This document shows, piece by piece, positions 3,563 to 31,136 of a stretch of 64,000 nt of DNA. A program made the translations under genes and the position numbers. Positions within the stretch are counted from its first letter, which is position 1. Each line of letters begins with the position of its first letter. The notes under the pieces were generated by a model that worked only from the letters and a program-made list of their open reading frames with translations, made no database searches and was not told the DNA's origin. This DNA is from Verrucomicrobia subdivision 6 bacterium (GTDB lineage: Bacteria; Verrucomicrobiota; Verrucomicrobiia; Methylacidiphilales; Verrucolacustridaceae). Where the stretch lies: the NCBI GenBank assembly GCA_947466515.1, contig CANIEM010000001.1, forward strand, positions 1 to 64,000, written 5' to 3'.

Positions 3563-4632
3563 AACCCCTTGGGATGGGGTTTGGATTTGGCCTGATAGGT
3601 GGGCTAGGTAAAAAGATCTTAGTTCATTGAAAGAACAGAGTCTGGTGGAAGGGGCGAAAGCCTACTTTCATTTGAAGACTCTCAGGATAGCTCCAGGTAA
3701 CTGGAGAATGGTCGGGGAACCTTGACTGCCCCGGCCCCCGAGTTGGATCACAAGTCCAGTTCGGGCATGTCTCACCGAATCCCGCGGCTGGGGTCGCACC
3801 CAGAAAAGCATCGGCAAAAGAAGAGCGAAAGCGAAACTGATGACGGTGTCCGTAGAATGCGAATAAGGGGTTTGCGAGGCCGGCAGCGATAACTAAAGAA
3901 GCCGCATGCTGGTTAAGTTACGTTGGGGGGGAGGTTTCGGCCCCCTTGGCGGACGCAGTCGCTCCAAGAAAAGGGCGATGGTTGCTACTGTGAGGAAAGT
4001 CAGGTGTCCGTAGTTGGCTTGAGTGAGGAGTTCGTAAGGCTCCTGGCTCTAAGGTTCCTCCTCATGCAGGGGGAACGCGAAAAGGGCTGGCTGGCGGATA
4101 GACGGAGACGGGAGATTAAACCGGCAGGTTTAGTCAACAGCCCGTTTCTGAGTTCGGGGGGCGGACCCGAGAGGGACGTCGCCCGGCTACGAGAAAAAAG
4201 CAACCTGAGAGATAAGAAGCTAGACCCGTGGCGGGGGGCCAACGCGGTGCCAAAAGCACTGGCTGTCCTCCCGACTAAAGGCGGTGACTCGGAAAACAAC
4301 CTGTCACAGGGTAATTCTCGTGGGTGGGTCAACGCCGTGTGTGGCGCGCCCGTACCGGCAGGTACGGACCGAACCAGGCAAAGAGGCTTCACTCAATAGA
4401 TTGCGATCAGGGATGGTCGCGAAGGCCCTGCTATGAGGCCTAAACTTCTCCTCCGCCGTGAAGCGGGGGTGGTGAATAGCGTCGGGAAACTGGCAGCCGA
4501 AGCAAAAAGCAGGATGAATCGAGAGATTGGTCCAGGCGCCAAATAGCCAGTCACTGGGAAAGAGAGCGTGGCGAGCTCCCACTCCCGTATGAACCCTTGG
4601 AGGCAAAACCTCCAAGGGTTCTTTTTTTTTTT
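3562..4632 (+). ncRNA. Large structured non-coding RNA, family unassigned
   Basis: About 1.07 kb holds no convincing protein gene but is full of perfect stems capped by short loops, which suggests a folded RNA. Seen: AAACCCC/GGGGTTT (3562-3582); GAGTCT/AGACTC closing 3638-3682, with GGC-GAAA-GCC inside (3653-3662); CTCCAG-GTAA-CTGGAG (3691-3706); CTGGG/CCCAG near 3788-3803; TAAACC-GGCA-GGTTTA (4117-4132); CCGTACC-GGCA-GGTACGG (4350-4367). Several loops are GNRA tetraloops (GAAA, GTAA). A 13-bp terminator with a T-run ends it. I looked for signatures of RNase P RNA, tmRNA, SRP RNA, rRNA and group I/II introns and did not find them. GAGGAAAGTC near 3991 resembles one RNase P segment, but the partner segments are missing. 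It lies upstream of rplY on the same strand. The exact 5' end is a guess. Confidence 0.6.
4591..4632 (+). terminator. Strong intrinsic terminator of the large RNA
   Basis: GAACCCTTGGAGG (4591-4603) pairs perfectly over 13 bp with CCTCCAAGGGTTC (4609-4621) across a CAAAA loop. An uninterrupted run of T residues follows immediately (4622-4632). This is a textbook Rho-independent terminator. It ends 118 bases before rplY, so the RNA block is transcribed separately from the ribosomal-protein operon. Confidence 0.93.
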
Positions 4633-20962: not shown

Positions 20963-22615
20963 TTATGATTTTTGCGGGGGAAGCAGGAGGCGCTGTTTGA
21001 GGGCGCGGACATGAAAGATTTTTACGATGGCTACGCAGGCGATACCAAAGAGGTTGGAGGCGTAGGCGGCGAGGAGGCTGGGTTGGATGACACCGATGAC
21101 TTGGAGGACAAGGGCGGTGGCGGTGCCAGCGATTCCGACGTAGAGACCTGCATCAAAAAGATTGTCCTCATTTTCAAGGAGGCGGAGTTTGAGATTAGGA
21201 TCGCCTGGGCCGTTCTCGATTTGTTGGATGCGGCGGAGGCAGATTCGGTAAACGGTGATTTGCAGGCCAAGGAAGATGGCGAGGGTGATAAGATTAGTGG
21301 GATCCATGGCACTCCTAGGGTGAGATTGTATTGTAGGGGATGGGGCGGGATGGGCGAGACTCAATCGATATTTTGGATATGGGCGAGGGTGGAGGAGGGC
21401 AGGTTCGAGGAGGGTACCGAGTAGGATGGCGAGGAGGGTGGCTTGGGCAAGGCGTGGGGCGGGTCGCCAAGGGCCTGGGCTGGTGGGGGCAAGACCTGGA
21501 AGGAGTTGCCAAAGGGCGGCGATGAGAAACCAGGAACCTAAGAGGAGAAGAGCAAGGCGGAGAAGGAGTAGGGGTTTTTCAAATTGAAGGATTGAGGGGA
21601 TCCATGAGGTGGGGATGGGAACGGAGCTAGAGAGGACGGGGACGTGGCGGGAGACGAGGAGTTGGACGGAGCCGCGACCTGAGGTGATGGCGGTGGAGAG
21701 GGGTTTCCAAGGTTGAGTGGTGGGGAGAGGTAGGAGGGGGAGGAGGTCGGCAGGGTTGGTCCAGAGGGCGGCGGCGAGGAGGAGGTCGGCGGGTTCGGAG
21801 GGGGTGCGGATTTGTTCAGAAAGCCAGAGAAGAGTGGGTAGGGAGTGGATGGTGCCGAGAATTTCTCGGAGAGAATCGTAGTCATAGCGACGGCTGAGGG
21901 AGAGGAGGGCGAGGAGGGTAGGTTGGAGGGGGCGAAGAGATTGTTCTTGGAGGGAATCGGTGGCGGACGTTTTTATTTCGTTGGCGACGGGGGAAGAAAA
22001 AGCGGCGGTATCAAGAAGGTGCGCGGTGAGAAGGAGGACGGCTTCGAGGGGTTGGCCGCCTGGGCTTGTCGCGGGGAGAAGGGGTGGGAGTGGAGGAAGG
22101 GAAAGAGTATCGAGAAGAGTTTGGACGCCAGGGGACGGATTGGATCGGAGGTTTTGACGAAGGCGAAGCCGAACTGATTCACGGAGGAGGAGAGTGAGAG
22201 TGGGCGGAGGTGAGGAGGCGGTAGTTTCGAAGGCGAGGCCGGAGGTGGCGAGGATGAGTTCGAGGCGGGGATCGCGGCTGCCGAGGGAGGCGAGGTCGGG
22301 GCGGGAGGAGAGGAGAGTGCGGGCGGACTGGAGAACGGCATCGCATTCGGGAAGGTGGATGGATTGGGCGAGGAGGGCGAGGCGAAGGCCAGCGCCGAGG
22401 TGTTCGGAATTGAGAAGAGAAGCGGCGAGTTCGGTGAGGGGGGTGGTACCTTGGCCAGCGGCGATGAGGAGACGTTCATCGATGGCTTTGAAGCGTACGG
22501 GGAGAATAGCCGCAGTGAGGAGGGCGGCGAGGCCGAGGACGAGATTGAGGAGGGGAGAAGGTTTCAGGCGGAGAATCTGGGGAGGGATGGGTTGATGCGG
22601 GTAAAGATTTCCCAT
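20963..22615 (-). CDS. Multi-helix membrane protein, function unknown
   Basis: 550 residues, very rich in Leu, Pro, Ser and Thr. A hydrophobic helix lies near residues 25-45, and more at about 350-370, 390-405, 445-460 and 495-540; between them is a long helical, probably alpha-solenoid region. I recognise no domain. The C-terminal 115 residues (from MDPTNLITLAIFLG) look like a self-contained small membrane domain and could be a separate gene that fused or was misread. The start overlaps the 3' end of alr by 52 bases; no later ATG fits. The reading frame is uninterrupted, so I treat it as a real gene. Confidence 0.6.
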   Translation of the reverse strand: MGNLYPHQPIPPQILRLKPSPLLNLVLGLAALLTAAILPVRFKAIDERLLIAAGQGTTPLTELAASLLNSEHLGAGLRLALLAQSIHLPECDAVLQSARTLLSSRPDLASLGSRDPRLELILATSGLAFETTASSPPPTLTLLLRESVRLRLRQNLRSNPSPGVQTLLDTLSLPPLPPLLPATSPGGQPLEAVLLLTAHLLDTAAFSSPVANEIKTSATDSLQEQSLRPLQPTLLALLSLSRRYDYDSLREILGTIHSLPTLLWLSEQIRTPSEPADLLLAAALWTNPADLLPLLPLPTTQPWKPLSTAITSGRGSVQLLVSRHVPVLSSSVPIPTSWIPSILQFEKPLLLLRLALLLLGSWFLIAALWQLLPGLAPTSPGPWRPAPRLAQATLLAILLGTLLEPALLHPRPYPKYRLSLAHPAPSPTIQSHPRSAMDPTNLITLAIFLGLQITVYRICLRRIQQIENGPGDPNLKLRLLENEDNLFDAGLYVGIAGTATALVLQVIGVIQPSLLAAYASNLFGIACVAIVKIFHVRALKQRLLLPPQKS

Positions 22616-23655
22616 GGGATGGTATCGGCTTCACGGGCGAGATCGGTGGCGGTGCGGGTGAGTCGACCCGATTGACCGAGCCAGACGACTTCGTTACCGC
22701 GGCGAGGATTAGGGACGCGGGTAACGTCGAGGAGAGTCATATCCATGGTGACGCGACCAAGGATGGGGCAGAAGCGACCTTGGATGAGGGCGTGACCGCG
22801 ATTGGAAAGGGAGCGGGGTAAACCGTGGGCGTAGCCTGTGGCGACCGTAGCGACGCGAAGATTGCGGGGGGCGCGGAAGCTAGCACCGTAGCTGATGGTT
22901 TCCCCGCGAGCGACGGAGCGGACAAGGAGGATGCGGGATTTCCAGGCAAGGACGGGTTGGAGGGGTGGGGAGGAGCGAGCGGAGGGGTGGATGCCGTAAA
23001 GAGCGAGACCTGGACGAGCGTGGGTAAGGGAAAAGGGATTGGTTTGGAAAGAGGCGGCGGAGTTGGCCCAGTGGTGGGGGAGATTCTTAGGCAAGAGGAA
23101 GGCGGATTTTAACTGGCGGCGGGTGAAGGCGGGATTGGAATCGGCGCAGGCGAGGTGAGTTAAGGTTCCGACGAGGTCGAGGGATGGCTGCTGGGCGATA
23201 AAGAAAAGAAGTTTTAAAAATTCCTGCGGGGTGGCCCCGAGGCGGTTCATGCCGGTATCGAGTTTTGCTTGGACAAGAGCGATGGTCTTGGCTCGGGTGG
23301 CGGCGCGGACGAGCTCGCGGGCTTCGGTGAGAGAGGAGAGGGTGATGGTGAGGCGATGCTGCAGAGCGCAGGGGAATTCGGGAGCAAGAGTGGAGCCGAG
23401 AAGGAGAATGGGTTGGCGGATTCCAGCGCCACGGAGTTGGGCGCCCTCGGAGACAAAGGCGACGCCGAACTCTTCGCATCCAGCTTGAGCAAGGGCACAA
23501 GTGATGGGGATGAGACCGTGACCGTAGGCGTTATCTTTAACAACGGCTAGAATCTGGGTTTTGGGAGGAAGAGAACGGCGTACCGTACGGAGGTTGTGGC
23601 GGAGGGCAGGAAAGGAAATCTCGCACCAGGTGCGGACGTCGCCGGGAATTTTCAT
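22564..23655 (-). CDS. alr: Alanine racemase
   Basis: 363 residues. This PLP enzyme interconverts L- and D-alanine for peptidoglycan. The PLP lysine motif AVVKDNAYGHG lies near the N-terminus; HWANSAAS and ARPGLALYG follow in the barrel. The C-terminal domain has ISYGASF with the second catalytic Tyr, and RVTMDMTLLDVT. The true start is the ATG at 23655 (MKIPGDVRTWCEI); the reading frame stays open much further upstream, but that part is a shadow of tsaB. Length is normal for the family. Confidence 0.94.
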   Translation of the reverse strand: MKIPGDVRTWCEISFPALRHNLRTVRRSLPPKTQILAVVKDNAYGHGLIPITCALAQAGCEEFGVAFVSEGAQLRGAGIRQPILLLGSTLAPEFPCALQHRLTITLSSLTEARELVRAATRAKTIALVQAKLDTGMNRLGATPQEFLKLLFFIAQQPSLDLVGTLTHLACADSNPAFTRRQLKSAFLLPKNLPHHWANSAASFQTNPFSLTHARPGLALYGIHPSARSSPPLQPVLAWKSRILLVRSVARGETISYGASFRAPRNLRVATVATGYAHGLPRSLSNRGHALIQGRFCPILGRVTMDMTLLDVTRVPNPRRGNEVVWLGQSGRLTRTATDLAREADTIPWEIFTRINPSLPRFSA

Positions 23656-23717
23656 AGGATGAGGATAAAGGGTGGGAAAGAGGGGTGAGAGCCTAAAAGT
23701 GTGGTGGTTGGGTAGTT

Positions 23718-24299
23718 TTATTTTGTGGCCATGGTGGGGCGGAGATGGATGGGTTCGAGGGCAAGGTCGGACTCGAGTTCGTGGGTTTGGAGGTAAGAGG
23801 CGAGGTCGGTTGCATGGGTGGAGACCTTTTTTTCGACGCCTGGGAGGGCGTCGGAGGTGACGGCAAGAGTGCAGCGGGTGAGGAGAGAGTGGAGGGAGGT
23901 GGCTGGGTGAACTTGGGTTGGTGTGTGGAGCTTTCCCATGGAGTAGAAAGTAGCGAAGATGTCGCCGCGGCGGGCATCGGAGAAAATACCGAGAAGAGGA
24001 GTGTCGGGATAGTGGTAGGCGATGGCGCCGGTGCTGCGGACAGGGAGGACGGGACAACCCCAGGAGGCGGCCATGCCGTGAGCGGAGGCGATGGCGGAGC
24101 GAATTCCGGAAAAGGAGCCTGGTCCTACTCCGACAAGAATTTGTGAAGGTGCTGGTGGGTTGGATAAAAGAGTTTGCAGAGAGGGGACAAGAGTAGCGGC
24201 GACGGTCCCCGATAGGGTGCCTGAGGCAATGGCTTGGCCTTGTTGGGTGAAAGCCCAGGAGGCGGGAGAGGTTGAGGCTTCGAGGATGAGGCGGGTCAT
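23718..24299 (-). CDS. tsaB: tRNA threonylcarbamoyladenosine protein TsaB
   Basis: 193 residues. TsaB pairs with TsaD (also in this window, near 45 kb) to place t6A at position 37 of ANN-decoding tRNAs. The N-terminal ASKHA-fold half is clear: LILEASTSPASWAF, then VGVGPGSFSGIRSAIASAHG, the TsaB signature. The C-terminal half is divergent, as is usual. The gene lies between a DUF3108 gene and alr on the minus strand. Confidence 0.9.
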   Translation of the reverse strand: MTRLILEASTSPASWAFTQQGQAIASGTLSGTVAATLVPSLQTLLSNPPAPSQILVGVGPGSFSGIRSAIASAHGMAASWGCPVLPVRSTGAIAYHYPDTPLLGIFSDARRGDIFATFYSMGKLHTPTQVHPATSLHSLLTRCTLAVTSDALPGVEKKVSTHATDLASYLQTHELESDLALEPIHLRPTMATK

Positions 24300-24341: not shown

Positions 24342-25151
24342 TTAGGGGGTGGAGGAGGGGTCGGATTCGGAGATGATCGGAACGGGTTGGCCATCGGGTT
24401 GGAAGTCGAGACTGGGACCGCCACCTCGGATGAGGCGGATGAGGAAGGTTCCGTACTGAAATTTGAGTTTTGCGAGGACGGGAATTCGTCGAGCGTCGTC
24501 GGTCATCCAGAGTTTGAGCCAGCCTTGGTGGCGGGTGGAAGGGCCGAAGGGTTGGCCGAGGATTTCAATGAGGGGGCGTGGGGGATCGTCTTCGATTTGG
24601 AGAGTTCCGATTTGTTGGCAGGTCATTTTAGAAAAGAGGGGTTCCTTGTTCTCTAGAACATTCCAGGTGATGGATTCGCCGGCTTTCCATGGGTACGCAC
24701 GAACATGGTAGAGCATGGAACCGAAGTCTTCGGCGGGGCCGTCGGGCAGATCAAAGTTTTCTTCGGGCTTACCTGGGGCTGGAAAGAATCGGCCAAGTTT
24801 GACGGAGTAGTCGGGCAGAGTTCGGCGTTGGCGGACGTTGCCGCCTTCGCTACGGTCCTGAATATATTCGAGAGTACGCCAAGGTTGCAGTTGGGTGAGG
24901 GAAGTGAGGCGACTGCGGATGGGATAAAAGGCTTCGATGGGACCGCGGGAGCGGAGATAAAGTTCAAATCGTTCTACCCCTTCGCGGTTGGGTTCTTTTT
25001 TTGCAGTGAAGATGGCTTCGGCCGCATCTAGGGGACCATACTCGATGAGGTAGGTGAGTTTTTCTCCATCGTGCCATGGAGAAACGGGGAGAGTTTGAGT
25101 CTGGCCTGTGGAGAGAGTGAGGAGAATGAGAAGTAAGAGGGAGGTATGCAT
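24342..25151 (-). CDS. Secreted DUF3108-type protein
   Basis: 269 residues with a signal peptide (first 20 residues) and a beta-rich body that matches the DUF3108 pattern: GEKLTYLIEYGPLDAAEA near the N-terminus, FDLPDGPAEDFGSMLYHVRAYPW in the middle, and WLKLWMTDDARRIPVLAKLKF near the end. The family is periplasmic and of unknown role; the fold may bind lipid (weak inference). It sits nine bases downstream of the nitric oxide synthase gene, so they may share a transcript. Confidence 0.8.
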   Translation of the reverse strand: MHTSLLLLILLTLSTGQTQTLPVSPWHDGEKLTYLIEYGPLDAAEAIFTAKKEPNREGVERFELYLRSRGPIEAFYPIRSRLTSLTQLQPWRTLEYIQDRSEGGNVRQRRTLPDYSVKLGRFFPAPGKPEENFDLPDGPAEDFGSMLYHVRAYPWKAGESITWNVLENKEPLFSKMTCQQIGTLQIEDDPPRPLIEILGQPFGPSTRHQGWLKLWMTDDARRIPVLAKLKFQYGTFLIRLIRGGGPSLDFQPDGQPVPIISESDPSSTP

Positions 25152-25160
25152 GGGGTAAAA

Positions 25161-26306
25161 TTAGTAGGGTCTTTTTTGAGATAGAAAGTTGGGGGAGTAC
25201 TCGGTGGGGTCGTAAGAGCGGTTCCAAAGGGGGGAGGTGGATCCTGAGAGAGGGGGGATAAGCCATTCCCAGAGTCCGCGGACCGACCTTCCTTTTTTCG
25301 ATTCGTCTTGTTCAAAACGTAGATGGGAGGCGGAGGCGGAGTGGTGGTCGATGATGCGCACCCCTGCTTTTTGGAAAGAGTAGAGAACAGCGCGGTTTAG
25401 TTCGACTAGGGCACGATCTTTCCAAAGGGTGGAGGGTCGAGAGGTGTCGAGACGGAGGCGGCGAGCAACATCTGGGAGAAGGTTGTAGCGATTCTCATCG
25501 GCCAAGTTCCGAGTTCCGATTTCGGTTTCCATATACCAGCCGCTGAAGGGGGCGGCGGGAAAGCTGATGCCTCCAATTTCAAGTCTCATATTGGAAACGA
25601 CGGGGAGCGCGACCCAGCGAAGCCGAAGGGAGTTGAGACAGGGGGAGTCCGGATGGCGGATGGAGACTTCTTGGGTGACTTTTTTTGGTGGCGGGAAAAG
25701 GCGGGGTTTTTTTCCAGGCAGAGAAATGACGATGGGTAGGAGATCGTAGGGAGTACGCTTTTTGGGTGGGGTCCAGCGTAAGTGAAGGCAGAGGTCGGTG
25801 AAATCGGCCTCGGCGGGATCGCCGAGGATCTGTTTTTTATTGATTCGGTAGCCAGCGTATCGGCTGAGTTGGTAGTTCCAGATTCGGGGGCCGCGCCCTT
25901 TTGAATCGGCGGGAGGGAATACGGTGACGGTGGAGCGGATGTCGCCTTGGTGGGTGGCGTGTTTTAGGTGGTGAAGGCAACCGTGATAGATGTCCTCTTC
26001 GGTAGAAGCGTGGCGCTGGTCGAGAACATCTAGTTTGGACCAAAAAAAGCGACCGACGCAACGGACGCTGTTGCGCCAGGCGAGTCGGCATCCGTAGGTG
26101 AGTTCGGGGAGGGTAAGTTGGTAGGTGCCTGATTTGGTGATTTGAGCTTGGGCCTGTTGGATGCGGAAAGCGGAGATGGTGGGAGCTTCTTTTTCAGATT
26201 GGAGTAGTTGAAAAAAAGCTTTGGCGGAGTGGGTGAGGGGGATCGGTTTTTTGCGACCGGTTAGGCGAAGGCGCTCGGATAAGGCGAGAAAAGGGCAAGA
26301 GGACAT
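25161..26306 (-). CDS. nos: Bacterial nitric oxide synthase, oxygenase domain only
   Basis: 381 residues. It should oxidise L-arginine to citrulline and nitric oxide using haem and a pterin. Seen: CRLAWRNSVRCVGRFFW with the haem-ligating Cys83; GWYMETEIGTRNLADENRYN with the arginine-binding Glu262; GLWEWLIPPLSG and the C-terminal SPNFLSQKRPY, both typical of NOS oxygenase pterin and dimer regions. There is no flavin reductase domain and none is encoded nearby, so electrons must come from a general flavodoxin or ferredoxin system, as in Bacillus NOS. Length is close to that of known bacterial enzymes. purD is divergent, 101 bases away. Confidence 0.93.
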   Translation of the reverse strand: MSSCPFLALSERLRLTGRKKPIPLTHSAKAFFQLLQSEKEAPTISAFRIQQAQAQITKSGTYQLTLPELTYGCRLAWRNSVRCVGRFFWSKLDVLDQRHASTEEDIYHGCLHHLKHATHQGDIRSTVTVFPPADSKGRGPRIWNYQLSRYAGYRINKKQILGDPAEADFTDLCLHLRWTPPKKRTPYDLLPIVISLPGKKPRLFPPPKKVTQEVSIRHPDSPCLNSLRLRWVALPVVSNMRLEIGGISFPAAPFSGWYMETEIGTRNLADENRYNLLPDVARRLRLDTSRPSTLWKDRALVELNRAVLYSFQKAGVRIIDHHSASASHLRFEQDESKKGRSVRGLWEWLIPPLSGSTSPLWNRSYDPTEYSPNFLSQKRPY

Positions 26307-26407
26307 GAGTAATAGAGTACTCGGTTGGTGAACGGCGTGAAATCTCGTTGCGAGGAAAAAAATCTTTGCTTTCGCATTGGCTTAAAGTTGCGAGAACAGA
26401 ACGCTTC

Positions 26408-27700
26408 ATGGTTGAAACATTTAGTGTGCTGATCATTGGGGGTGGAGGTAGGGAGCATGCCTTGGGGTGGGGTTTTGCGCGGGACCCGCGGATGCAGAAG
26501 ATCTGGTTCGCTCCAGGGAATGCGGGCAGCTCGGAAATTGGGATTAACCTTCCCTTTGGGGTTATGGATTTTGTGGAAATCACCGATTGGGCAAAAAAGG
26601 AGAAGCCGGGATTAGTGGTGGTAGGACCTGAGGTGCCGTTATGTGCAGGATTAGCGGACCGGTTGAGGGAGGCAGGATTGAGGGTTTTTGGTCCTGGGGC
26701 GAATGGAGCGCAGTTGGAGGGGAGTAAATCGTTCTGCAAAGATTTGCTGGTTTCTCAGAAAATCGCTACGGCACGAGCGGGTTCTTTTATAGATCAGAAA
26801 GAGGCGATTCGGTTTAGTGAGTCGCTTCCTCCGCGGCAAGTGGTCAAGGCGGATGGATTGGCTGGGGGAAAGGGGGTGGTGATGGCGGGAAGTCATGCGG
26901 AAGCGGGTCAGGCGATTCGGGAAATGATGGAGGGACGAGTTTTTGGGGAGGCTGGAACGAGGGTGCTGATTGAGGAGTTTTTGGACGGGGAGGAGCTGAG
27001 TATTCATGCGGTGACGGACGGGAAAAGATTGGTGATTTTACCTTCGGCGCAGGATCATAAACGGGTGGGGGATGGGGATAGGGGTTTGAACACCGGAGGA
27101 ATGGGGGCGTACGCGCCGGCTCCGAGGGCGACTCCCGAGCTGCTTCGGGAGGTAGAGGAGAAGGTGCTTCGCCCTACTTTGGAGGGTCTGCGGTCTAGGG
27201 GGATTGAGTATCGGGGGGTTCTTTATGCGGGGTTGATGTTGACGAAAGAGGGACCGAAGGTTTTGGAGTTTAACTGCCGTTTCGGAGATCCCGAAACGGA
27301 GGTGCTCGTACCGTTATTAGAAACGCCACTCTGGGATCTGCTGTGGGCGGCGGCAGATGGGGATTTATCGAACGTTTCGATGAAAATCCGTCAGGGAGCG
27401 GCGTTGACGGTGGTGGTAGCGGCGCCAGGTTATCCTGCGCAGCCGATTTTGGGTCAGAAAATTCAGATGGGCAATGGAGGGGCGGATTCGGTGGTTTTTC
27501 ATGCAGGAACGAAAAAGGAAGGGTCGGAAGTGGTGGTGTCGGGAGGGCGGGTGTTGGCAGCGACGGGCTGGGGGGATGATTTGCGGACAGCGCGTGAGCG
27601 GGCTTATGGGGCGGTGCAGAAGGTTTTCTTTGCGGGAATGTATTTTCGCGGGGATATCGGGCATCGGGCTTTAGGAAAAGTTGTTTACGATGCCCCTTAG
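26408..27700 (+). CDS. purD: Phosphoribosylamine-glycine ligase (GARS)
   Basis: 430 residues. PurD joins glycine to phosphoribosylamine in purine synthesis. The order of motifs is standard: LIIGGGGREHALGW at the N-terminus, FAPGNAG, PEVPLCAG, the ATP-grasp region VVKADGLAGGKGVV, SAQDHKRVGDGDRGLNTGGMG, and LEFNCRFGDPETE. The start is the ATG at 26408. It begins a plus-strand run that leads into the phosphatase-RpiB-GlyA fusion, so glycine use and glycine production are coded close together. Confidence 0.96.
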   Translation: MVETFSVLIIGGGGREHALGWGFARDPRMQKIWFAPGNAGSSEIGINLPFGVMDFVEITDWAKKEKPGLVVVGPEVPLCAGLADRLREAGLRVFGPGANGAQLEGSKSFCKDLLVSQKIATARAGSFIDQKEAIRFSESLPPRQVVKADGLAGGKGVVMAGSHAEAGQAIREMMEGRVFGEAGTRVLIEEFLDGEELSIHAVTDGKRLVILPSAQDHKRVGDGDRGLNTGGMGAYAPAPRATPELLREVEEKVLRPTLEGLRSRGIEYRGVLYAGLMLTKEGPKVLEFNCRFGDPETEVLVPLLETPLWDLLWAAADGDLSNVSMKIRQGAALTVVVAAPGYPAQPILGQKIQMGNGGADSVVFHAGTKKEGSEVVVSGGRVLAATGWGDDLRTARERAYGAVQKVFFAGMYFRGDIGHRALGKVVYDAP

Positions 27701-28958: not shown

Positions 28959-31136
28959 ATGAAACATGTGCTTTTTATTTGTACGGGTAATGTTTGCCGA
29001 AGCCCGATGGCAGAGGGGTTGTCGCGCCTAGCCTGGGCTGAGAGTCGGGAGGTTACTTTTAGTTCAGCGGGAATCGGTGCAGTTTTAGGACAGGCGCCTA
29101 GTCCCTACGCGGTTGAGGTGATGAGGGATTTGGGATGTGATATTTCGCGGCAAAGGAGTCAACCAACCACGGCAGAGTTGGTGCGTAAGGCGGACTATAT
29201 TTTTGTCATGACCTATGGGCATCTTGATTCGATGCTTCTGCTTTATCCTGCGGCAGCGGATAAGATTTTTCTAATGCGTGAATTCCAACCTGGTCTCTCC
29301 CCTGATGAGCGAGAGGTAGATGATCCGATTGGACAACCGGTGGGTGTATATCGGGCATGTCGGGATCAGATTCAACAGTCGATCCCGTTCTTGATGGAAA
29401 TGGTGCAGAGTGGGGTGGTGGCGACATCCGCGAGTGTGGCGACCGGGCAGATCTGTATTGGTTTGGCTGGAGATTCAGCAGGACGAGTTCTTTTATCGGA
29501 AGCTAGGGAGGTGCTGAGGCAAGAGGGTTGTACGGTTTTGAATTTGCCGGCAGGGGACGGGGCGGAGTATCCCGAGATTGCGCAGGTGGTGGCACAAGCA
29601 ATTCGAGGAGGAAGGGTTCAAGGGGCGGTGGTGGTTGGAAGATCGGGGATGGGATTGTGCATGGCATCAAACCGTTTTCCCAAGGTGCGGGCGGTGGTGG
29701 CCGGATCGCCCGAGGCGGCGCGTTGTGCGCGGGAGCGGTATCACGCAAATGTATTGTGCTTGGGGGCGGATGAGTTGGGTGCGGCAGATGCGCGGGCGTG
29801 CGTGCAGGAGTGGATTGCGACTCCCTTTGCGGGCGCGCGGTATGAGGAGAAAATTAATCGACTGGAAGGAATGGGGGGATCGAACTCCGGGGATCCAGTG
29901 GGCGCTGATTTGGCGAGGACAGATGGATTGGTGGCCGAAGCGATTCGGCGTGAGCATAGGCGCCAGTCGGAAAATATTGAGCTGATCGCTTCGGAAAACT
30001 TTACCAGTCCTGCGGTGATGCAGGCGCAGGGGTCTTGTCTGACGAATAAGTATGCTGAGGGCTATCCTGGTAAGCGGTGGTATGGGGGATGCGAGTTTGT
30101 GGATGAGGTGGAGCAAGCGGCGATTGATCGGGCGAAGGAGTTGTTTGGGGCAGAGCATGCTAATGTGCAACCGCATTCAGGAGCGCAAGCGAACACGGCG
30201 GTTTATTTTGCCTTTCTCAAGCATGGGGACAAAATTCTGACGATGGATTTGGCGCACGGTGGGCACTTGACCCATGGGCATCCGAAGAACTTTTCCGGAA
30301 TGTTCTACACCGTGCGACATTATGGGGTTGATCCGACAACGGAGCGGATCGATTACGAATTATTGGAGAAGGCGGCGTTGGAGTTCCGACCGAAGATGAT
30401 TACGGTGGGGGCATCTGCTTACTCTCGCCTGCTGGACTATGCCAGAATGAGGGAGATTGCAGACAAGGTGGGGGCGCTACTTTTTGCGGATATGGCGCAC
30501 GTGTCTGGGTTGGTGGCGGGGGGGGTACATCCGAGTCCGGTGCCGTATGCGGATTTTGTGACGACGACGACGCACAAGGGGTTGAGAGGTCCGCGGGGGG
30601 GGATTATTTTATGCAAAGCAAAGTACGCGAAGGAGATTGATTCGATGGTATTTCCTGGAGTACAGGGAGGGCCTTTGATGCACGTAATTGCGGCGAAGGC
30701 GGTCTGTTTTCTGGAGGCGTTGAAGCCTGAGTTTAAGTTGTATCAAGCGCAGGTGGTGAGAAATGCGCGTGCCTTAGCCGAGGGATTGAAGAAACACGGG
30801 TACAAGATTGTTTCTGGGGGAACAGATAATCATTTGATGTTGGTGGATCTAAGACCTGCGGGGATGGATGGCAAGGTTGCGCAGGAGGCGTTGGATGCAG
30901 CTGGAATTACAGCGAATAAGAACTCGATTCCGTTTGATACGGCTTCGCCGATGCGGCCTTCGGGGATTCGATTGGGGACGCCTGCGATGACGACGCGGGG
31001 GATGAAGGAGTCAGAAATGTTCGATATTGCGAATTTGATCCATCAGGCCTTACAAAAACGGAATGATCCTGCAGGGTTGGAAGTCGTGCGGGGTGAAGTG
31101 CGTCGATTGACGGCGCTATTTCCGTTGGCGAGCTAG
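28959..31136 (+). CDS. Fusion: low-MW phosphatase, degenerate RpiB, serine hydroxymethyltransferase
   Basis: A single open frame of 725 residues holds three domains. Residues 1-150 are a low-molecular-weight protein phosphatase with an intact P-loop CTGNVCRS (Cys8, Arg14) and DDP (Asp121-122). Residues about 163-303 align along their length with RpiB, but the E. coli catalytic Cys66 is Val226, His99 is Arg260 and His10 is Ser173, so isomerase activity is unlikely. Residues about 311-725 are a complete GlyA with PLP Lys540 (TTTTHKG), making glycine and methylene-tetrahydrofolate from serine. An in-frame ATG at 29871 (residue 305), with GGAAGGA before it, could also yield free GlyA. In B. subtilis ywlE, ywlF (rpiB) and glyA occur in this order in one cluster, so this is that cluster fused. 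Sequencing frameshifts cannot explain three intact domains in one frame. Confidence 0.92.

Follow-up and report, generated by a model that had tools for sequence, protein, structure and literature searches.

A stand-alone nitric oxide synthase oxygenase with a valine gate and a terminal Cys-Pro-Phe arm in planktonic freshwater Verrucomicrobia

Results

An intact NOS oxygenase gene in a conserved neighbourhood

The window, by which we mean the whole 64,000-nucleotide stretch of DNA analysed here, contains on its minus strand (25161..26306) an ATG-initiated open reading frame for a 381-aa protein with a single Pfam domain, the nitric oxide synthase (NOS) oxygenase domain PF02898, spanning residues 24-380 (E 1e-140). 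The domain scores 469 bits against a cut-off of 22.7 and covers positions 5-361 of the 362-position profile. The AlphaFold model of the protein has a pLDDT of 89. In a Foldseek comparison it aligns along its whole length (~360 residues) with B. subtilis NOS at a TM of 0.88-0.90, and with human eNOS at a TM of 0.90. In an alignment of 30 NOS sequences, the haem thiolate ligand Cys83 (26058..26060, minus strand) and the arginine guanidinium ligand Glu262 (25521..25523, minus strand) are invariant, as are Trp77, Gln146, Trp257, Tyr258, Arg266, Trp346, and Trp348; in mouse iNOS the equivalent residues are, in the same order, C194, E371, W188, Q257, W366, Y367, R375, W455, and W457. The proximal cysteine is accompanied by the haem-stacking Trp77, the pterin-site residues Arg266, Trp346, and Trp348 are retained, and the position of Phe470 is occupied by Trp361. 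An earlier note on this DNA had described the haem motif, the arginine motif, and the C-terminal pterin region as intact and had named an alignment with lost haem or pterin residues as the result that would speak against it; the alignment uncovered no such loss, and the description held.

The same note had found no reductase fused to the gene or near it, and this was borne out. A stop codon directly follows the NOS domain, and the one open frame upstream runs antisense. In relatives, frames of 530-553 aa were considered as a fused upstream domain and rejected because they are antisense to purD. None of the neighbourhood genes encodes a reductase by Pfam, the genome has no PF00258 match, and its only PF00175 reductase lies on another contig. 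We conclude that the gene is a real, intact stand-alone oxygenase.

NOS is flanked by the divergent purD (26402..27700, plus strand; PF01071/PF02844/PF02843), which lies beside it in the genus loci wherever the contig reaches. On the other side, a gene for a DUF3108 protein (24342..25151, minus strand; PF11306) begins 9 bases downstream of NOS and is probably co-transcribed with it; a tsaB-like gene (23718..24299, minus strand; PF00814) and the alanine racemase gene alr (22564..23667, minus strand; PF01168/PF00842), both also recognised by synteny, come next in the cluster. The order NOS-DUF3108-tsaB-alr is kept in the main clade of the genus; in a deep branch purD is kept beside NOS, and at one locus of this branch (L010) other genes follow NOS, with no DUF3108. 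The regions between purD and NOS could be aligned only among close relatives and gave no convincing regulatory motif, and an Rfam search gave no riboswitch near NOS. Two peroxide-related genes, which encode AhpC/TSA-family thioredoxin-fold proteins (Pfam), lie 7-8 kb from NOS and outside its cluster, in agreement with the earlier view that they are not linked to it. Elsewhere in the window, a stretch at 3685-4579 (plus strand) matches the MISL RNA family (RF03079) over the full model length with 358 bits (gathering score 275), and throughout positions 1-64000 the GC skew has large positive values, between 0.12 and 0.47.

The host belongs to a small-genome planktonic freshwater lineage of Verrucomicrobia 'subdivision 6'; its genome measures 2.06 Mb in 84 contigs and is 88% complete. 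The closest NOS records (96% identity) bear the name of the same subdivision and are mostly from lake MAGs; one close record carries the title Akkermansia muciniphila, probably through mislabelling. Of 21 genus genomes, most of them incomplete, 13 have NOS, among them all three that are at least 90% complete. Across the phylum it was found in 18 of 387 sampled genomes, and the seven other genomes of the same order in this sample gave no match. We conclude that the gene is ancestral in the genus.

Phylogeny and selection

The phylogeny of NOS oxygenase domains proposed in the earlier note was run as an 84-row maximum-likelihood tree, in which the midpoint root is arbitrary, the bootstrap is not settled, the iNOS branch is long, and Synechococcus NOS is not included. 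In this tree, the Bacillota group does not include the genus sequences, which form one clade of their own with a long stem (0.73) and a support of 100/100, and 14 of the 15 other sampled verrucomicrobial NOS form a separate clade to which the genus clade does not belong. Comparisons within the genus gave dN/dS values of 0.07-0.15; for several of the pairs dS is close to saturation. Taken from the sequences, this is the signature of an old gene under purifying selection in a housekeeping neighbourhood. That the gene came recently by horizontal transfer from Bacillota and has no settled role would be suggested by the best matches outside the genus, which are Bacillota proteins of ~50% identity. 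However, the genus has its own deep clade, which argues that NOS is not a recent Firmicute import, a result to be read with the arbitrary root and unsettled bootstrap in mind, and the locus is conserved within the genus. We therefore regard such an import as very improbable. An ancient transfer may have occurred and is compatible with the data, including the lack of a match in the seven same-order genomes.

Gate and pterin-pocket residues

Several residues are distinctive of the genus. At the 'NO gate', the position that governs NO escape (iNOS V346, isoleucine in B. subtilis), Val237 (25596..25598, minus strand) is conserved in 24 of 24 genus rows, and Trp361 (25224..25226, minus strand), at the position of iNOS Phe470 where pterin is stacked across the dimer, is likewise found in 24 of 24; these rows contain duplicates because the same genomes were taken from two collections. 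Bacillota have isoleucine at the gate in 60 of 66 sequences and valine in six, as do some sequences of other phyla, and they have phenylalanine at the Phe470 position in 61 of 66. In addition, Asp or Glu stands at the Ile456 position and Asn at the Asn348 position in 22 of the 24 genus rows each. The serine before GWYM is shared with eNOS.

Gate isoleucine, a feature called typical of or universal among bacteria and not a defining one, is thus absent from this enzyme. It has been said to occur in all bacterial NOS (PMC6104048) and in the majority of them (PMC6120233). The sequences compared here support the 'majority' statement, and the statement that all bacterial NOS carry the isoleucine would be corrected accordingly. 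Going by the reported effect of valine versus isoleucine at the gate (PMC6120233, PMC6104048), Val237 predicts that NO would be released faster than from Bacillus NOS.

Probable pterin cofactor and electron donor

Among the H4F pathway genes for which the earlier note had suggested a search, FolE2 and serine hydroxymethyltransferase (SHMT) were found and FolE-I and FolA were not. Specifically, FolE-I was not found in any of the 20 genomes searched and FolA in none of 13 genus genomes; FolE2 is present in nine of these 13, including the window's genome, and in 7/7 genomes of the order, and a tetrahydrofolate (THF)-using SHMT is encoded within the window. FolE2 and SHMT together imply folate metabolism. 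Because FolA was not found in the 13 genus genomes, dihydrofolate reduction must use another enzyme, as it does in other bacteria that lack FolA. We consider THF the likely pterin cofactor of NOS. The SHMT (GlyA) is part of a 725-aa open reading frame (28959-31136, plus strand) that also comprises a low-molecular-weight phosphatase and an RpiB-type isomerase, and this frame aligns end to end in relatives (L002, L004, L006, L007, L009, and L010).

The search for a flavodoxin or reductase partner, also suggested earlier, gave no flavodoxin and instead a distant pair consisting of a CysJ-type FNR and a ferredoxin. PF00258 had no match in 13 genus genomes, with B. subtilis as a positive control. 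All 13 encode exactly one PF00175 protein. That of the window's genome is a 376-aa CysJ-like FAD/NADPH module that lacks the flavodoxin half (L135, 808-1938), and a 4Fe-4S ferredoxin gene lies directly upstream of the FNR gene (L143/L144/L145). Three genomes were read at this place: in G001 the upstream gene encodes a single-cluster 4Fe-4S ferredoxin by Pfam match (PF13370), and in the window's genome (G000) and G019 a homologous small ferredoxin gene was recognised by translation. Two Fer2-type matches in the window's genome lie in frames of 258 and 1250 aa, neither of which is the size of a stand-alone ferredoxin.

The most economical chain to the NOS haem would therefore start from NADPH and pass through the CysJ-type FAD reductase and the [4Fe-4S] ferredoxin, and NOS is probably reduced by this general NADPH chain of the cell. 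Because the FNR/ferredoxin pair is not linked to NOS, it must serve other enzymes, which counts against the proposed chain. Bacterial NOS have been described as drawing on general reductases of the cell (PMC3701330), and linkage of a reductase to NOS is for this reason not expected.

Proposed function of the enzyme

From the gene, its residues, fold, conservation, phylogeny, and synteny, and from the presence or absence of partner genes, we infer catalysis, pterin identity, electron donor, release kinetics, and physiological role as follows. Our working hypothesis, to which we assign a probability of about 0.7, is that this is a working bacterial NOS that uses a THF pterin, is reduced by FNR and ferredoxin, releases NO fast owing to Val237, and produces an intracellular NO signal that eases oxidative stress. 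In a haem-thiolate dimer, oxidation of L-arginine would yield citrulline and NO, and tetrahydrofolate is the most likely pterin. The NO would most likely be used within the cell, where it would ease oxidative stress by redox or nitrosation signalling. Candidate targets are the CPF thiol arms of NOS itself and of the KatG of the genome (G000:C10; see below). KatG gave no match in a 96% complete genome that has NOS (G005), and it cannot therefore be the sole NO target. A search of 13 genus genomes for globin/Hmp gave no match. A streamlined lineage of freshwater plankton keeps a NOS with a mammal-like gate in genomes where flavodoxin, Hmp, and P450 were not found, so that the enzyme would have to run on a ferredoxin chain reduced to the minimum, with the standard NO sink missing.

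We also considered that the NOS fold may no longer produce NO and may instead serve as a haem or arginine binder or as a peroxidase-like protein. Trp361 and Glu347, which alter the pterin pocket, would fit such a protein, as would the failure to find the classic FolA and FolE-I enzymes and flavodoxin. On the other hand, the catalytic residues are all intact, purifying selection is strong, and FolE2 and the FNR/ferredoxin pair are present; loss of NO production is in our view improbable. A second alternative holds that NOS supplies NO to a pathway of natural-product nitration, like TxtD/TxtE of Streptomyces, as some stand-alone bacterial NOS do (PMC9500659, PMC10831120). The neighbours here are housekeeping genes in the same locus across the genus, and no P450 was found in the window's genome or in four other genus genomes of the class sample, which argues against NOS/P450 nitration chemistry. 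We rejected this alternative, which seems to us very improbable. A producing, signalling NOS is the preferred reading.

A terminal CPF arm on NOS and KatG

Residues 1-19 of NOS (MSSCPFLALSERLRLTGRK; 26250..26306, minus strand) form a flexible arm that is predicted to be disordered (pLDDT below 50 in the AlphaFold model) and carries a CPF motif at residues 4-6. The motif is kept in every full-length NOS of the genus, including the deep branch, and it resembles haem regulatory motifs. Among 63 non-redundant NOS, 24 have a terminal CP[FYVIL] motif compared to 0.5 expected with shuffled tails, and the N-terminal part of this count is a lower estimate due to start-site choice. The motif is N-terminal in NOS of Verrucomicrobia, Actinobacteria, and Rhizobium and C-terminal in those of Paenibacillaceae, Jeotgalibacillus, Bacteroidota, Nostoc, and Deinococcus. 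The background is ~2 N-terminal and ~3 C-terminal motifs in some 796 non-NOS ORFs (~0.6%), stray NOS genes discounted. In KatG, CP[FV] is present in the N-terminal tail at 30/30 class loci read (L154-L183), and the KatG of the window's genome has its CP arm in MSTQSKCPFSGS. In E. coli KatG (MSTSDDIHNTTATGKCPFH) the motif cysteine is Cys16; it undergoes S-nitrosylation in vivo, and the C16S exchange makes the strain more sensitive to H2O2 (PMC8044216). The motif occurs in just one of 19 Verrucomicrobiae P450s read, so the arm is not a general haem-enzyme tag, an idea that we rejected on this count. A literature search, which had incomplete coverage, found no paper that describes the motif as common to NOS and KatG.

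The terminal Cys-Pro-Phe/Val arm may be a portable thiol module that responds to NO or haem and is common to the unrelated haem enzymes NOS and KatG. NO from NOS would nitrosate the arm cysteine of NOS itself and of KatG, or haem would occupy it, and NO synthesis would thereby be coupled to peroxide defence in a genus where Hmp, the usual NO detoxifier, was not found; we consider this unlikely but conceivable. Alternatively, the arm may have nothing to do with sensing of NO or haem and serve only as a dimer lock, which could be left over from the mammalian Zn-cysteine site or could be an intersubunit disulfide. This is a possibility that we hold tentatively. It fits NOS and KatG both being dimers with terminal arms, and it gains from the N-terminal CxxxxC zinc site that joins mammalian NOS dimers, the description of S. 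turgidiscabies NOS as Cys-X4-His (PMC3701330), the N-terminal dimer hook of KatG (PMC8355310), and the rarity of the motif in the P450s. In many NOS, however, the motif lies at the C terminus, Pro-[FVY] is conserved along with the cysteine, and the KatG cysteine is nitrosylated in E. coli (PMC8044216). The arm common to NOS and KatG is the part that most deserves experiment: because it overlaps an in vivo S-nitrosylation site, single cysteine mutants would make the question of NO and peroxide protection testable.

Comparison with known systems

The earlier note was right that this is a stand-alone NOS outside Firmicutes and overstated how unusual that is. It had made no mention of the valine gate, of Trp at the Phe470 position, of the CPF arm, of the distant pair of FNR and ferredoxin, or of the failure to find flavodoxin and Hmp in the genus. 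In sequence searches, NOS was also found in Actinobacteria, Cyanobacteria, Bacteroidota, Deinococcota, Alphaproteobacteria, and haloarchaea, and judged from these sequences a stand-alone NOS outside Firmicutes is normal. Unannotated NOS matches in two Staphylococcus phage records are probably host DNA. On alphaproteobacterial plasmids (L121, L122), NOS comes directly after a gene for a radical SAM protein, a glycosyltransferase gene lies close by, and these two NOS look like a biosynthetic group.

NOS in several freshwater Verrucomicrobia MAGs, with no adjacent toxin genes, was described by Cabello-Yeves 2017 (PMC5673642), and its presence alone is therefore not new. Phylum and habitat are the same as here; the headline MAG of that paper is from Opitutae, and the passage on NOS gives no analysis of residues, phylogeny, partners, or motifs. 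The other Verrucomicrobiae NOS examined here (L095-L110) are likewise stand-alone, and several have an N-terminal CPF or CPY; they differ in that they mostly fall into a separate clade, have I, L, or V at the gate, and have Phe at the 470 position. Self-sufficient NOS of the scNOS/SyNOS/mammalian type have a fused reductase, whereas the present protein has a single domain. With the mammalian eNOS/iNOS oxygenase it shares Val at the NO gate and Asn at the 348 position, and its overall similarity to mammalian NOS almost equals that to bsNOS (phmmer, 346 vs 355 bits), but it is without a reductase, a CaM site, and the CxxxxC zinc site. The Bacillus subtilis and Geobacillus enzymes (bsNOS, gsNOS; ~43-51% identity) are the same in being stand-alone oxygenases and in fold and catalytic residues. 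Unlike Bacillus, the verrucomicrobial host is without a YkuN/P-type flavodoxin, and the genus enzyme has Val237 in place of Ile, Trp361 in place of Phe, Asn239 in place of Asp, and the N-terminal CPF arm. We conclude that this is an enzyme of a known kind, to which the present analysis adds the residue changes specific to the genus.
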